60,798 bases of DNA from NCBI GenBank assembly GCA_017542465.1, contig JAFXXB010000033.1, positions 1 to 60,798 of the forward strand. The letters are read 5' to 3'. Shown piece after piece: positions 6,764 to 60,798 of this stretch. A program made the translations under genes and the position numbers. Under the pieces are notes generated by a model. The model was given only the letters and a program-made list of their open reading frames with translations. It searched no databases and was not told where the DNA came from. How positions within the stretch are numbered: position 1 is the first letter of the stretch; every line of letters begins with the position of its first letter. This stretch comes from Bacilli bacterium (GTDB lineage: Bacteria > Bacillota_I > Bacilli_A > RF39 > UBA660).

Positions 6764-6786
6764 AGAGTGTGATACTCTTTTTTATT
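6762..6786 (+). terminator. Intrinsic terminator after yhhQ
   Basis: AAAGAGT / ACTCTTT stem with a short loop GTGAT, then a T run; it overlaps the stop codon. Confidence 0.8.
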
Positions 6787-6807
6787 TTAATTAAAATGTA
6801 AGGTTAT

Positions 6808-6848
6808 AAGTGCATATATTGAATGCACTTAAAAGTTGGTATTATAAT
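6808..6848 (+). promoter_or_regulatory. Promoter with palindromic operator candidate for the XRE regulator
   Basis: TTGAAT (6819-6824), 18 bases, TATAAT (6843-6848). The inverted repeat AAGTGCAT (6808-6815) / ATGCACTT (6823-6830) overlaps the -35 box, which suits repression, possibly autoregulation by the XRE protein. The operator role is inferred. Confidence 0.6.
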
Positions 6849-6894
6849 ATAAGTGTAATGAGCTATACTTAAGCCATGAAAGGAGATAAGTCCG

Positions 6895-7812
6895 ATGAAA
6901 TTTGGAGATAATTTAAAATCAATTAGAAAAATGAAGAAAGTTTCTCAAGAAGATCTTGCTGATAAGTTAGGAGTATCAAGACAAAGTGTATCAAAATGGG
7001 AAACAGGTGAAAACTATCCTACCATGCAAAATATAGTTTGTTTATGTTCTATATTTAAATGTAAGATGAATGATTTAGTACATGAAGATTTTGATGATCT
7101 AGATTTCTTGGATGAAGAGATTAAAATGAGTGTAGTTAAATTAAATGAAAAAGAGCAAAAGAATATTAAGGTTATAAGTAATATATTATTTATGATTGCT
7201 AGAATAGGAGCAATAATATCTAGAGTCGCTATGGGATTTGTAGTAGCTGCTATGATATTCGTTCCAATACTTATAAATAGTATAGAGATTAATGATAATA
7301 GAATAATTAGTAATGGTAAAGTATTTACTGTAACAGAAATTCATGATGGTGTTAGAATATCATCTTCACAAAATGAACATATAATTATATCTGATATAAA
7401 TAATAAAGATGTAGAATTAATTAAGAATGCTATAACTAAACAAAGTAAAACTAAATTAATTATTTTTATTGAATTAGGTTTTGCATTTATAGTTGCTTTC
7501 TTAGTATTTATATCAATGGCTTTATCTAAAATGGATAAGTTATTTGTAAATATTCATGATGGTGAGACTCCATTTACACTTGATAATATTAGTTATTTAA
7601 AGAAGATGGCATATTATTTTATAATAGCTATAGTTTTATCAGCTATAGGATCTACAATGTTTAATATAGGTATTGGTGTAGATAATGTAGTAGAATTTAA
7701 TCTATTTAATATAACTGAAATAATATTCTTATTTGCTATGTCTTTGGTATTTGAATATGGATATCGTATTCAACAAGATTCAAAAGGTAAAATGTATGGA
7801 AAAGAAGATTAA
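6895..7812 (+). CDS. XRE-family regulator with DUF2975-like membrane domain
   Basis: The first 65 residues form a Cro/CI-type helix-turn-helix, with SQEDLADKLGVSRQSVSKWE as the recognition region. The rest resembles the membrane domain often called DUF2975, with four hydrophobic segments near residues 95-125, 185-205, 240-260 and 275-290. Such proteins combine DNA binding with a membrane anchor, and their signal is unknown. A perfect SD (AAAGGAGATAAG) precedes the start. The gene stands alone between two terminators and has a palindrome in its own promoter, suggesting autoregulation. It is not tied to the YibE/F pair by a shared transcript. Confidence 0.85.
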   Translation: MKFGDNLKSIRKMKKVSQEDLADKLGVSRQSVSKWETGENYPTMQNIVCLCSIFKCKMNDLVHEDFDDLDFLDEEIKMSVVKLNEKEQKNIKVISNILFMIARIGAIISRVAMGFVVAAMIFVPILINSIEINDNRIISNGKVFTVTEIHDGVRISSSQNEHIIISDINNKDVELIKNAITKQSKTKLIIFIELGFAFIVAFLVFISMALSKMDKLFVNIHDGETPFTLDNISYLKKMAYYFIIAIVLSAIGSTMFNIGIGVDNVVEFNLFNITEIIFLFAMSLVFEYGYRIQQDSKGKMYGKED

Positions 7813-7827
7813 TTTCTTCTTTTTTTA
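7801..7827 (+). terminator. Intrinsic terminator after the XRE regulator
   Basis: AAGAAGA / TCTTCTT stem overlapping the stop codon, followed by a run of Ts. Confidence 0.8.
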
Positions 7828-7836
7828 TGTTATAAT
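7828..7836 (+). promoter_or_regulatory. Extended -10 promoter for the YibE/F pair
   Basis: TGTTATAAT directly after the terminator T tract, with no -35 box. Confidence 0.6.
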
Positions 7837-7859
7837 TTTGTTTATACAATGGTGATTAT

Positions 7860-8954
7860 ATGAAGAAGAATTATATATTATTAATTATATTATTTGTATT
7901 ATCTTTAGGTTGTATTATATTTACTTATAATGATCATTTCTTATATCAAACACCAATAATGAGAGTTACAAGTATTGAAAGTAAAAATATAACTGAAGAT
8001 AAATATGAAGAACCTTTATATGTTCAAACTATTAAAGGAACTATTATGAATGGTGAATACAAAGGAAAGACATATGAAACTATTAATTCATATACTAAAT
8101 CATTAGTCATGGATGACAAATTAACTAAAGGATCAGAAGTATTTGTAGAATTATCTAATGATGGTAGTGATCTTTTAGGTATACATGGAGTTAAAAGAGA
8201 TAAATACTTAGTTATACTAATAGTTATATTTATTGATTTAATAATTATTATTGCAGGTAGAAAAGGTTTTAAAACATTATTAAGTTTAATTGTTAATCTT
8301 GGTATAACTGCAGGATCAATTATATTATTCATGAATAATTATACAAAGATGAATTTATTACTTTTATATTTTATAGTATCTATTATTTATATAGTAGTAT
8401 CTTTATTTATTACAAATGGTAAGAGTAAAAAAACACTTGCAGCTATTTTATCATCTATTACATCATTACTTATTACATTTGGATTATCATTTATACTTAT
8501 TAAAATAAATGAAAGTAATTTATATATATGGAATATAGATTATATAGAAGCTGTATATGATTATAATAATTATTTATATGTATGTGTATTGTTATGTGGT
8601 TTAGGTGCAATCATGGATATCTCTATAACTATATCTTCTGCTTTAAATGAATTAATAGAAAAAGATAAAAAGATAAAGAAAGATGCATTGATTAAATCAG
8701 GTAAAGAAATATCTAAAGATATAGTAGGTACTATGATTAATGTTATGTTATTTACATGCTATACATCAGTTATACCAACTATAGTTATAGCGACAAAAAA
8801 TAAAATACCATTTACCAATGCTATGGATTTCTATGGTGGTTTAGAGTTAATGATTGTTTTATGTAATTGTATAGGTATTGTTTTAACTATTCCTATTTCA
8901 TTATTTATATCTATATGGATATTAAATAAAAAGAAGGAAGTGATGAAGAAATGA
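7860..8954 (+). CDS. YibE/F-like multi-pass membrane protein (first of two)
   Basis: A 364-residue protein of the YibE/F family, a poorly characterised group of Gram-positive membrane proteins. One N-terminal membrane segment (residues 4-24) is followed by an extracytoplasmic beta-rich stretch to about residue 115, then about seven membrane helices. The family motif around GLGAIMDISITISSALNEL is present near residue 250. The stop overlaps the start of the next gene (ATGA), so the two are translationally coupled and probably act together. Lactococcal relatives have been linked to transport or stress, but no specific function can be read here. Confidence 0.8.
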   Translation: MKKNYILLIILFVLSLGCIIFTYNDHFLYQTPIMRVTSIESKNITEDKYEEPLYVQTIKGTIMNGEYKGKTYETINSYTKSLVMDDKLTKGSEVFVELSNDGSDLLGIHGVKRDKYLVILIVIFIDLIIIIAGRKGFKTLLSLIVNLGITAGSIILFMNNYTKMNLLLLYFIVSIIYIVVSLFITNGKSKKTLAAILSSITSLLITFGLSFILIKINESNLYIWNIDYIEAVYDYNNYLYVCVLLCGLGAIMDISITISSALNELIEKDKKIKKDALIKSGKEISKDIVGTMINVMLFTCYTSVIPTIVIATKNKIPFTNAMDFYGGLELMIVLCNCIGIVLTIPISLFISIWILNKKKEVMKK

Positions 8955-56974: not shown

Positions 56975-58663
56975 ATGTTCTTTTTTCTTGAAGTAATTAT
57001 TATTGTTATGTTTATTCTTGTTTTTATTAAAATAATAAATAAAGTGTTAAGCAAGACTAAAAATATTTCTTTTAGGAGACCTTTGACAACTGTAGATGGA
57101 AATAATGCAATATCTCCTTCAATGTATAATCAAAGCTTAAATAATCTAGCTAAAGATTACATTAAAGAAGAATTAAAACAACAAGGTTTTGGATTATTTG
57201 ATTCAACATTAGATTTAGAGGTAAAAAAGAGTATTTTATCTTTAGTATTTTCTATAGTAATGATGATATGTAACTTTATGTTATTGTTTAGAATTAATAA
57301 CACATTAACTATATTATTAATGTTTGTATCAATCATATTATTCCTTGTATTTTTCTTTAAATTTAATTTATATGGAATATTGATTAAACAATTTAATGAA
57401 AGACAAGATGAAAAGATGGATTATATAATTGCATCTTATATACAACAAAGAACTAATAGAGTTATTTTTGTTGCAGCAAGATTAATCGTTTTAGGATTGA
57501 TGATTGCAATTCCATATTTAATATTTAATAAACCTACATATTTATTCGAAGCATATGATGATGGGTATAGATTAAGATATTACGTTGATTCATCTAATAA
57601 TAAAGAAGTAGTTGTACCATCTGAATATAAAGGTAAAAAAGTTATAGCTATACGTGGAAATGTGTTTAAAGGTTTAAATGTTGAAAAAGTAGTATTACCT
57701 GATAGTATTAAAGAAATAAATGGACATGCTTTTGAAAATAATAAAAGACTTAAAGAAGTTGTGATGCCTTCATCACTTGAAATTTTAGGATCACAAGCAT
57801 TTAAGAATTGCACATCTTTAGAAAAAATTGATATACCTGTTGGTGTAAAAGAAATTCAATATTCTACATTTGAAGGTGCAACGAGTTTACAAGAAGTAAG
57901 TTTTAATAATCAAGAAATAATAATAGGAGGATATGCATTTACTAATGCAAGTAGCTTAAGAAAGTTAAATAATTTAAACCCTACAGAAATACATGCATAT
58001 GCATTCCAAAATACATCACTTGAAGATATTGTGTTACCTAATGGTATTGAAGAAATACCAGCTGGTGTATTCCAAGGAACTAAATTAACATCTTTAGATA
58101 TTCCAGCAAGTGTTAAAAAGATAAGTGAAAGTGCATTTGAAGGTTCTTCAATATCAAAAGTAACATTACATGATGGACTTGAAGAAATAAGTGAAAGTGC
58201 TTTCCAAGGATCAGGATTAACATCAATTACTATTCCTGATACAGTTACAAAGATTAGTGCTCATGTATTCCAAGATTGTACATCTTTAAAGAGTGTAAAA
58301 TTATCAAAGAATATCAAAGAAATCAAAGCAGGTACATTTAGAAATACTGCTATTGAAGAAATAGATATTCCAACAGGTGTAACTAAAATAGGCGAAAGAG
58401 CTTTTAGAAATTGTAGAAACTTAAAGAAGGTAACTGTACCTAGTACTTTAGGATCAATAGGTGACTCAGCATTTAGGGAATGCCCTCGATTAAGAGAAAT
58501 AACTATACCAGGTTATTGTTCAGTTGGTAAAAAAGCATTTGAAGATTCATTTACAATTATAAAACGTGATAATAAAATGCGTAATACTGAAATGGATGAA
58601 AGAATGGAAAGAGTATCTAAAGCAATAAAGGAAGCAGAAGAAAAATATAATTCAGAAGAATAG
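56975..58663 (+). CDS. BspA-type leucine-rich-repeat membrane protein
   Basis: A 562-residue protein. Membrane helices lie near residues 2-24, 88-108, 112-132 and 165-185. Then come about 12 repeats of roughly 23 residues (residues 200-530) of the BspA/LRR_5 type, with the pattern I.....F.....L..I.IP.....I. Examples are LPDSIKEINGHAFENN and IPASVKKISESAFEGS. The end is a charged helix. In secreted BspA proteins the repeats face outward; here a multi-helix anchor is at the N-terminus. Ligand unknown. Confidence 0.85.
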   Translation: MFFFLEVIIIVMFILVFIKIINKVLSKTKNISFRRPLTTVDGNNAISPSMYNQSLNNLAKDYIKEELKQQGFGLFDSTLDLEVKKSILSLVFSIVMMICNFMLLFRINNTLTILLMFVSIILFLVFFFKFNLYGILIKQFNERQDEKMDYIIASYIQQRTNRVIFVAARLIVLGLMIAIPYLIFNKPTYLFEAYDDGYRLRYYVDSSNNKEVVVPSEYKGKKVIAIRGNVFKGLNVEKVVLPDSIKEINGHAFENNKRLKEVVMPSSLEILGSQAFKNCTSLEKIDIPVGVKEIQYSTFEGATSLQEVSFNNQEIIIGGYAFTNASSLRKLNNLNPTEIHAYAFQNTSLEDIVLPNGIEEIPAGVFQGTKLTSLDIPASVKKISESAFEGSSISKVTLHDGLEEISESAFQGSGLTSITIPDTVTKISAHVFQDCTSLKSVKLSKNIKEIKAGTFRNTAIEEIDIPTGVTKIGERAFRNCRNLKKVTVPSTLGSIGDSAFRECPRLREITIPGYCSVGKKAFEDSFTIIKRDNKMRNTEMDERMERVSKAIKEAEEKYNSEE

Positions 58664-58679
58664 TAAGATGGGTGGTTTT

Positions 58680-60413
58680 ATGAAAGAATACAAGTTTATT
58701 CATCTATTGTATGTTCCAACTCTTGCATGTAATATGGCTTGTAAATATTGCTATCTAGAAGATAATACAAAAGAGTTGAAAACTGATAAAAAGGTATTAG
58801 ATACATTAAAGTATGCTATAGATAAATTTAATAAAAGTAATGTATATCCATTTAATATATCATTACATGGTGGAGAAGTTACTTGTTTACCTCATGATGA
58901 TTTTGAAGGTGTTATTAAGTTTATAAGTGATTATTATAAAAAGAATAACAAGTTGATAACATCACATGGTTTTAAAATAGGTGATCCTCATATTAAAACT
59001 AATTTATATTCTATAGATAAACATATAGATACTATAAAGAAATATAATGTATCTATTTCAGGTAGTTTAGATTTACCTTTATCATTACATAATGAATATA
59101 GAGTAACTAAGGGTAATGGTAAAACATTAGATAAGATAATTGATAATTGTAAGCTATTAAATGAATTACCTAATAAAAGAAAAGTGTCAGCTACTATATT
59201 TAAAGAACATTATGACAAGATAGATGAAATAATTGAAGATATCAAATGGTTAGATAAAAATACAACACTTGATATGAATGATTTTAATTTTATGATTGGA
59301 TTTGATTATAATTCAAATGGAATACTTCATCATATGAGTGAAAGTGAACAAGTTAAGTTCTTTAAAAGAATGCATAAAGAATTTGATGGAACTAATCTTG
59401 ATGAGGGAGTAAATGGTGCATGGTTTAATGAGTTTGGACCTGAGTATTGTACAAACTGTACCAACTGTGGATCTAAGTTCTTCTTACTTGAAAAGAATGG
59501 AGATATTTATTCATGTGTAAGAGGGCAAAAGAATCCTGATTTCTATTATGGAAATATATATGAAAATACTGTTGAAGAAATATTAAGTAAAGCAGAAGAA
59601 CAAATATTAAAAGCACACAATAGAGTTGGTTTTGATCCTAAATGTGCTAAATGTCCTTATCTTTATATATGTAAGACTGGTTGTCCGTTTGTTAAGAATG
59701 TTTATAAACAAAATAAATCATACACATGTAAGTTACAACAAGAATTATATAAATTAAGAGGATATAAAAAAGATAATAATGTAGAAGAAACAGCATATTA
59801 TTATTTACAAGAAATGCATCCTAATATAATGAATGAATATTATCCTAAAGAAGTTTTAGATTATCCAACACTGGAAGAAATTATTAAAGAAGATAAGAAT
59901 CTAAAGGATATATATTCAGATGATGTATTTATACTTAACGTAGATGGCCAAGAATATATACTATCATCTCAAATAACTAAGAAGGTAAGGGATATAGTAT
60001 ATTTAACAAATGATTCAAAGATAGAATTATATATGAGAAATAATATATTTGAAAGTGTATGTGATTACCCTAATAATAACTCATTATATATGATGTTATT
60101 ATCAGGCGATTTAATTACATATGGTGATGAAGGAAGAACCAAACAAAGACATGTCATGACACATCAAATATATGAAGGTGTAATTAAGAAAAATAAATCA
60201 GATAAAAAGGGTTATTATAAGGTAGATATTTCTAATATATTGAAAATGTATTATAATGAATTAGATAAGAATAATCCTAATAACTTGTTCTTTACAACAA
60301 GTGCATTAAGAGATTACCATTATACAAAACAAAAGAATAATGCATATTATCATATTCAAGCAATTAATCTACCATTTCAAAATATTGAATTTTATGTGCT
60401 AGAGGAGGAATAA
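58680..60413 (+). CDS. Radical SAM/SPASM enzyme, candidate peptide maturase
   Basis: A 577-residue protein. The radical SAM cluster motif Cx3Cx2C is at residues 17-24 (CNMACKYC), followed by the GGE motif in SLHGGEVTC. A SPASM-type domain with many cysteines follows (CTNCTNCG, CVRG, CAKCPYLYICKTGCP, then CKLQ; about residues 255-360), predicting auxiliary Fe-S clusters. About 210 C-terminal residues are not recognised. The plan resembles sulfatase-maturing and RiPP-maturing enzymes. The ATG at 58680 is chosen because GGGTGG lies just upstream; one at 58668 has no SD. A Gly/Ser/Asn-rich protein gene follows 2 bases later. Confidence 0.85.
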   Translation: MKEYKFIHLLYVPTLACNMACKYCYLEDNTKELKTDKKVLDTLKYAIDKFNKSNVYPFNISLHGGEVTCLPHDDFEGVIKFISDYYKKNNKLITSHGFKIGDPHIKTNLYSIDKHIDTIKKYNVSISGSLDLPLSLHNEYRVTKGNGKTLDKIIDNCKLLNELPNKRKVSATIFKEHYDKIDEIIEDIKWLDKNTTLDMNDFNFMIGFDYNSNGILHHMSESEQVKFFKRMHKEFDGTNLDEGVNGAWFNEFGPEYCTNCTNCGSKFFLLEKNGDIYSCVRGQKNPDFYYGNIYENTVEEILSKAEEQILKAHNRVGFDPKCAKCPYLYICKTGCPFVKNVYKQNKSYTCKLQQELYKLRGYKKDNNVEETAYYYLQEMHPNIMNEYYPKEVLDYPTLEEIIKEDKNLKDIYSDDVFILNVDGQEYILSSQITKKVRDIVYLTNDSKIELYMRNNIFESVCDYPNNNSLYMMLLSGDLITYGDEGRTKQRHVMTHQIYEGVIKKNKSDKKGYYKVDISNILKMYYNELDKNNPNNLFFTTSALRDYHYTKQKNNAYYHIQAINLPFQNIEFYVLEEE

Positions 60414-60415
60414 TT

Positions 60416-60798
60416 ATGTTATACGATAAGGCTACAACATTTAGAGAATTAAAACTAAAAAAGTCTGTTTATAATTTAGCTAATTATTATAATATAACTA
60501 ATGAAGAATTATTCGAAATATATGATTATTTAGTTGCAAATAAAGATAGATATTTAGTATCTACTAAGTTAACAATCAAATTATATGATGAGAATAATCA
60601 ATTATATAAAACATATCGTGTTACAAATAATGTTCCTGATTTTGGTAACACATCTTTTGATGGTATAAGAATTGATGATTTAGGTGAACATATTAGTACA
60701 CATTATGTTAGTCATTCATCATTTGGTGGAGGAGGTTCTTCTTCGTCATCTGGTGGAGGTTCATCAAATAATAACAATAACAATAATAATACATTTGA
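60416..60798 (+). CDS. Unknown protein with Gly/Ser/Asn-rich end (3' partial)
   Basis: The frame starts MLYDKATTFRELKLKKSVYN with GAGGAGG as SD and is open to the end of the window (127 codons). Residues 1-95 look folded, with many Tyr, Asn and Asp. From about residue 98 it turns into low complexity: HSSFGGGGSSSSSGGGSS, then eight Asn and TF. It starts 2 bases after the radical SAM stop, so both are made together. The folded-then-simple layout could be a leader plus core region, but a plain linker to an unseen domain is equally possible. No family is recognised. Confidence 0.6.
   Translation, partial: MLYDKATTFRELKLKKSVYNLANYYNITNEELFEIYDYLVANKDRYLVSTKLTIKLYDENNQLYKTYRVTNNVPDFGNTSFDGIRIDDLGEHISTHYVSHSSFGGGGSSSSSGGGSSNNNNNNNNTF

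Follow-up and report, generated by a model that had tools for sequence, protein, structure and literature searches.

A radical SAM/SPASM enzyme family encoded beside proteins with C-terminal poly-asparagine tails in gut and rumen bacteria and in Campylobacter phages

Radical SAM enzymes that act on neighbouring peptides are a known kind. Among the related SPASM enzymes, anSME oxidises Ser or Cys and others form carbon-carbon links, in some families at Asn, and the His-Xaa-Ser system (HxsA with HxsB and HxsC) brings together a protein with a C-terminal low-complexity repeat and radical SAM enzymes. Likewise, DynA, the dynobactin maturase, and other cross-linking SPASM maturases act on a peptide encoded beside them, and in the GrrA/GrrM glycine-rich cyclophane system a Gly-rich precursor is paired with a SPASM enzyme. 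PMC9062424 cites the His-Xaa-Ser motif together with HxsB/HxsC and discusses Aro-Xaa-Asn motifs. Numerous radical SAM genes, with no role assigned, have been described in Campylobacter phages (PMC2853527, PMC3322345). One phage protein family of this type, phrog_1802 ("radical SAM domain-containing protein", category "other"), carries neither a function nor a substrate in its PHROG entry.

The locus described here lies at the end of the window, that is, the whole stretch of DNA that was analysed (60,798 bases), which is also the whole of contig C2, so that the window edge is the contig edge. The sequence-only reading of this DNA proposed a peptide-modification system, possibly of the Gly-rich kind, with a long leader. 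The data presented here agree with an enzyme paired with a substrate-like protein, but not with the Gly-rich hallmark: the defining feature of the partner is a C-terminal poly-Asn tail, not its Gly richness. No description of such an enzyme/poly-Asn pairing was found in the open-access literature.

The enzyme and its partner at the contig end

The features of the locus are listed in the table. The enzyme starts at the ATG at 58680; another in-frame ATG lies upstream at 58668, and this start is less likely because relatives align from 58680. The enzyme belongs to the radical SAM superfamily (Pfam Radical_SAM, 42.7 bits against a cut-off of 29.5), carries the cluster motif CNMACKYC, a CxxxCxxC site, and scores above cut-off with the SPASM models PF13186 (24.9 bits, cut-off 21.5) and TIGR04085 (47.3 bits), in keeping with the radical SAM/SPASM assignment and the Cx3Cx2C site of the sequence-only reading. 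The CxxxCxxC motif and the seven-Cys SPASM pattern, C-x(9-15)-G-x4-C ... C-x2-C-x5-C-x3-C ... C, were present in all 49 relatives aligned and in the two phage enzymes examined, one from a Campylobacter phage and one from the metagenomic phage contig L137. The C-terminal part that the earlier reading could not assign corresponds to 207 residues for which Pfam gave no match. These residues are predicted to fold confidently on their own (AlphaFold2, pLDDT 93), and residues E, R, K, H, N and Y within them are invariant across gut and phage enzymes. Fold searches with this domain returned no PDB match at E < 0.001; the best match (Z 6.2) was an uncharacterised Leptospira protein, tied with RhoGDI-like sandwiches, and none was confident. 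The enzyme is a complete radical SAM/SPASM protein outside the named maturase families, and the curated cut-offs of the NCBIfam SPASM maturase models (DynA, anSME, HxsB, PapB, GrrM and others) were not reached. It matches phrog_1802 at full length (E 1.1e-40, residues 12-570; PHROGs come without curated cut-offs), as do the Campylobacter phage enzyme (6.4e-142) and that of L137 (1.5e-49).

Table. Features of the locus, with coordinates in the window unless another contig is named
Feature	Position	Strand	Basis
Membrane-anchored LRR_5 (BspA-type) protein, 562 aa, first gene of the conserved block	56975..58663	+	Pfam LRR_5, hydropathy, alignment A4
Radical SAM/SPASM enzyme, 577 aa	58680..60413	+	Pfam/NCBIfam; 80 related loci
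Radical SAM domain, residues 11-188	58710..59243	+	PF04055, 42.7 bits
SPASM domain (residues 260-350; contains Cys350, the last conserved Cys)	59457..59729	+	PF13186 24.9 bits, TIGR04085 47.3 bits; invariant Cys
Enzyme C-terminal domain, residues 371-577, beta-rich	59790..60410	+	AlphaFold2 pLDDT 93; invariant residues
Poly-Asn protein, 127 codons present, open at contig end	60416..60796	+	sequence; relatives
Predicted N-terminal fold of the poly-Asn protein (residues 1-98), with two helices and five strands	60416..60709	+	AlphaFold2
Ser/Gly-rich linker of the poly-Asn protein	60710..60766	+	sequence
First 8 codons of the Asn tract, AAT and AAC mixed; remainder beyond the contig	60767..60790	+	sequence
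Zinc-ribbon membrane protein, 345 aa (L102/L103)	G000:C19:73640-74677	-	completes the block in the own genome

The gene for the poly-Asn protein begins with an ATG at 60416, two bases past the enzyme stop codon that ends at 60413, and its product shows the HSSFGGGG stretch, the Ser runs and the Asn runs noted from the sequence. The folded first part that had been suspected is also predicted by AlphaFold2 (residues 1-98, pLDDT 82-98 by block, compared with about 55 in the tail). This N-terminal domain gave no family match in Pfam, NCBIfam or further profile searches, and a fold search with the protein gave no confident match (best Z 4.5).

The truncation noticed at the window edge was real, as the contig itself ends at 60798, inside the (AAY)n repeat of the poly-Asn gene. 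The end of the protein most likely lies on contig C19 of the same genome, which ends with TAATAACTAG; read on the strand of the gene, this gives the last Asn codons and a stop, and relatives give closed tails. It is followed on C19 by the zinc-ribbon membrane protein of 345 aa and by the ATPase and permease of an ABC transporter. In genome G005, of the same genus, the genes for the LRR protein, the enzyme, a 134-aa poly-Asn protein, the zinc-ribbon protein and the ABC pair are contiguous, and because of this uninterrupted gene order C2 and C19 most likely flank a single gap in one poly-Asn gene. The other (AAY)7 site in the genome, on contig C42, was set aside: it is out of frame for Asn, as read in a surface-protein gene.

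A conserved block with a patchy distribution

From a genome scan, 80 loci were retained whose enzymes share 50-82% identity with the window enzyme over nearly the full length. The poly-Asn protein directly follows the enzyme in 78 of the 78 loci with enough sequence, the RiPP-type arrangement in which a precursor is encoded beside its modifying enzyme. Two outcomes had been named as speaking against the original proposal, a pair that is not conserved and a downstream frame that belongs to a long enzyme or to a structural protein with a simple linker. Neither was found: the neighbourhood comparison showed the pair to be conserved, and relatives of the partner end 0-1 residues past the Asn run. 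The tail could be read in 74 of the 78 loci (72 directly and two under code 25); of the other four, three stop at a contig end that lies ahead of the tail or inside it, and the fourth is L017. The apparent loss of the tail in L017 was rejected, since a single base differs ahead of an intact (AAY)n and the tail is present on a second contig from this MAG.

Clustering of the neighbouring genes gave the order membrane LRR_5 protein, enzyme, poly-Asn protein and, often, zinc-ribbon membrane protein, so the block extends beyond the pair first noticed. An LRR relative immediately precedes the enzyme in 70 of 78 testable loci (absent from eight), and the zinc-ribbon protein was found in 43 of 64 (absent from 21). 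The LRR protein passes Pfam LRR_5 with 263 bits (cut-off 27.7) and has four predicted hydrophobic segments (1-28, 81-99, 101-138 and 160-186) ahead of the LRR domain. The zinc-ribbon protein has two hydrophobic segments with zinc-ribbon cysteines on both sides; its family is widespread in the related loci and has no Pfam domain above cut-off. Gene position suggests a role for these membrane proteins, and it would be a loose one, since each of the two genes is missing from some loci. In three Bacteroidales loci (L066, L068 and L078) a nucleotidyltransferase-looking protein of about 300 aa replaces the LRR gene directly upstream of the enzyme.

The system was found in Bacilli, Clostridia, Bacteroidales, Eggerthellaceae and a recoded lineage; Lachnospiraceae bacterium GAM79 (AP018536) is a carrier with a complete genome. 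The enzyme is patchy, occurring in 8 of 98 near genomes and, among 392 genomes sampled across the phylum, only in the genome studied here. A search of 60 near genomes for the poly-Asn protein detected it in six, each of which carries the enzyme. Among the near genomes, (AAY)10 was present in seven of seven carriers other than the own genome compared to 11 of 90 non-carriers (Fisher 2.5e-6), of which only part were resolved. A general abundance of Asn runs in AT-rich genomes was considered and rejected, as the resolved runs of non-carriers are linkers or tails of unrelated proteins or non-coding-looking repeat. Long Asn runs in unrelated proteins without the enzyme were seen in G085, G019, G032, G054, G028 and others (L105, L109, L111, L114, L116), as linkers or tails of, for example, LysM and PBP-like proteins.

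In the enzyme tree, Bacteroidota and Actinomycetota form single clades among Bacillota, and two loci that use TGA for Gly (NCBI code 25), L055 and L057, are placed inside a Bacillota clade with 99/100 support. The genes of L055 (CAMVNA010000010.1, 8410-11612 and downstream) and L057 (CAMOEC010000020.1) might be taken as interrupted. This was rejected, because the LRR, enzyme and poly-Asn genes are all intact when TGA is read as Gly. All 16 in-frame TGA codons in the two enzymes fall on alignment columns dominated by Gly, many of which are invariant, and the genes neighbouring these enzymes also carry many TGA codons. It looks as if the block moved from Bacillota into an SR1/Gracilibacteria-type lineage and was then recoded. 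MAG binning errors are possible for single records; the TGA codons are not such an artefact, since they lie in frame inside the genes themselves.

In closed tails the last Asn run has 5-20 residues, mostly 8-20, with a median of 13, and it is mostly preceded by SSS or GSS. The residue that follows is R in 25, G in nine, H in eight, S in four and A in four, there is none in 13, and one run is interrupted. Among 1372 ORFs of at least 100 aa in the related loci, exactly 62 end in five or more Asn plus 0-1 residue; these occur one per locus and every one is the poly-Asn gene. The tail codons are scrambled (512 AAT and 388 AAC) and the share of AAC rises with genome GC, to 0.875 at 65% GC, which indicates that selection acts on asparagine and not on a DNA repeat. 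A hydrophobic stretch occurs in 3 of 77 poly-Asn proteins and the rest have no predicted membrane segment; the candidate substrate in gut and rumen bacteria is a dedicated protein of about 120 aa without a signal peptide or membrane segment. Profile comparison found it to be kin neither to the 211-aa phage protein described below nor to the C-terminal domain of the enzyme. Matches of the poly-Asn alignment to maltose-binding-protein fusions were discarded as the Asn linker of that tag.

Asparagine tails on Campylobacter phage fibres

Searches of phage and plasmid proteins found a full-length relative, 34% identical to the window enzyme over 98% of the length. It occurs in Campylobacter phage CAM-P21 and in a C. 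coli plasmid record that contains a prophage. These phages are Mu-like, and the enzyme lies in the tail module, behind the genes for a tail-collar fibre (PF12571) and a 211-aa protein. The CAM-P21 fibre ends in APSGSTNNNNY. On IMG/VR contigs with the enzyme, fibres that differ in length and C-terminal sequence all finish with S/G/T/C-N(2-5) and then Y, F, S or no further residue (..STNNNNY, ..GATNNNNY, ..GSSNNNNY, ..STGNNF, ..SSGNNF, ..SMGNNF, ..SMGNNS and ..SCNNNNN). A second scan, with the N-terminal domain of the fibre, found fibres that are 88-100% identical in this domain and have no enzyme in at least 1.2 kb downstream; these end in RGHV, FMELR, ILNVR, MLL, MIWN, KIYE or KELR. When fibres were grouped by distinct C-termini, Asn tails were found in six of six classes with the enzyme and none of seven without it (Fisher 5.8e-4), all from one phage group, the Campylobacter phages. 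The 211-aa protein (phrog_10241; L117 8351-8986 and relatives) is conserved between fibre and enzyme in the enzyme-carrying phages, and tblastn did not detect it in the phages without the enzyme that were compared. Its role may be that of a chaperone for the fibre or of a partner to the enzyme, and because the enzyme travels with this gene, the Asn tail could depend on the 211-aa gene instead.

The most divergent member of the enzyme family is that of L137 (IMGVR_UViG_3300010935_000101, a 97-kb contig; enzyme at 6765-8585). No neighbour with an Asn tail was seen in 17 kb of this contig; one nearby protein, of 172 aa, has a Cys-rich C-terminus. When viral contigs were scanned with A1, the gut alignment, no match came up.

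Possible function and comparison with described systems

The C-terminal Asn tail of the adjacent protein is all that the two unrelated hosts of this enzyme family have in common, which makes the tail the likely substrate. The data establish the association of the genes, the architecture of the tail, its conservation at the amino-acid level and its co-segregation with the enzyme in phages; modification of the tail, with its manner and purpose, is inferred. The uncharacterised radical SAM family that matches PHROG 1802 probably modifies the C-terminal Ser/Gly-poly-Asn tail of the adjacent protein; the difference in tail length, 2-5 Asn in phages and mostly 8-20 in bacteria, and the lack of a visible Asn-tailed neighbour in L137 count against this reading. 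For the broader proposal, that these enzymes place a hitherto undescribed modification on C-terminal poly-Asn tails both in a horizontally mobile, membrane-linked system of gut and rumen bacteria and at phage fibre tips, belief and doubt are about equal. In the proposed mechanism, the [4Fe-4S] cluster at CxxxCxxC would cleave SAM, and the 5'-deoxyadenosyl radical would abstract a hydrogen from a side-chain carbon in the tail, either of Asn or of the Ser before it. The SPASM clusters would hand on the electron, the C-terminal domain of the enzyme would help to hold the tail, and oxidation, cross-linking or epimerisation of the tail could result. In gut and rumen bacteria the poly-Asn protein may be received or displayed by the membrane LRR and zinc-ribbon proteins, whereas in the Mu-like Campylobacter phages the substrate would be the tip of the tail fibre.

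It is conceivable that the Asn tail is a recognition or handling tag and that the enzyme modifies the Ser/Gly linker, the folded domain, the fibre body or a third molecule. Such a role would fit the short phage tails and the fact that the nearest solved relative, anSME, oxidises Ser or Cys, given that a Ser-rich stretch precedes the tail. However, no sequence feature other than the Asn run is shared by the gut proteins and the phage fibres, the Ser content before it varies (SMGNNF, SCNNNNN), and a homopolymer of 8-20 residues exceeds the needs of a short tag. Overall, a tag is considered unlikely, though it is the strongest of the alternatives.

Less probable still is a classical RiPP, in which the N-terminal domain is a leader and the Ser/Gly/Asn tail is cleaved off and exported as a small active peptide. 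A SPASM enzyme does adjoin a small protein here, and the transporter anticipated beyond the window edge has a counterpart in the ABC ATPase and permease that follow the block in the own genome and in its close relative G005. However, neighbour clustering found no peptidase and no transporter or exporter family that recurs across the other loci. The long leader proposed from the sequence is indeed a long first part, but it is predicted to be a folded domain of about 95 aa, and the phage fibres that bear the Asn tail are structural proteins. The presence of the same enzyme family beside Asn-ending phage fibres argues for modification of a protein tail over a classical released peptide. Finally, the tail could be a neutral (AAY)n microsatellite located by chance at the end of a gene; such repeat-like DNA breaks assemblies, and slippage could alter its length. 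This was rejected on codon mixing and GC tracking, which contradict a neutral repeat, and it is very improbable also in that the run is kept across phyla, is always C-terminal with 0-1 residue after it, and recurs in phage fibres only beside the enzyme.

If modification of the tail is correct, it would be a new protein modification, and to our knowledge the first example of a phage tail fibre being completed by a radical SAM enzyme. It would also define a membrane-linked system common to Bacilli, Clostridia, Bacteroidales, Eggerthellaceae and a recoded lineage. In two unrelated settings the enzyme family is linked to C-terminal runs of Asn, and this names a candidate substrate for PHROG 1802, an enzyme family without an assigned function; the link of that entry to Asn-tailed proteins and to the bacterial block is drawn in the present analysis.

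Compared with the described systems, the closest solved sequence is anSME (PDB 4k37), which is alike in the radical SAM and SPASM part only (E 2e-6, residues 6-354). The enzyme scores 88.8 bits with the anSME model TIGR03942 (cut-off 349), has no sulfatase partner and has the extra 207-aa C-terminal domain. A Grr-type glycine-rich cyclophane precursor, which is close to the idea of the sequence-only reading, was rejected because the enzyme scores far under the GrrM cut-off (TIGR04261, 59.2 bits against 310), and Gly is confined here to the linker. The best NCBIfam score was that of DynA (NF041298, 93.7 bits, cut-off 450), from which the present system differs in that its proposed substrate is a homopolymer tail on a folded protein. 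With the HxsB model the enzyme reaches 74.2 bits (cut-off 370), and the His-Xaa-Ser system has His/Ser repeats and two radical SAM enzymes, whereas the block described here has poly-Asn and one enzyme.
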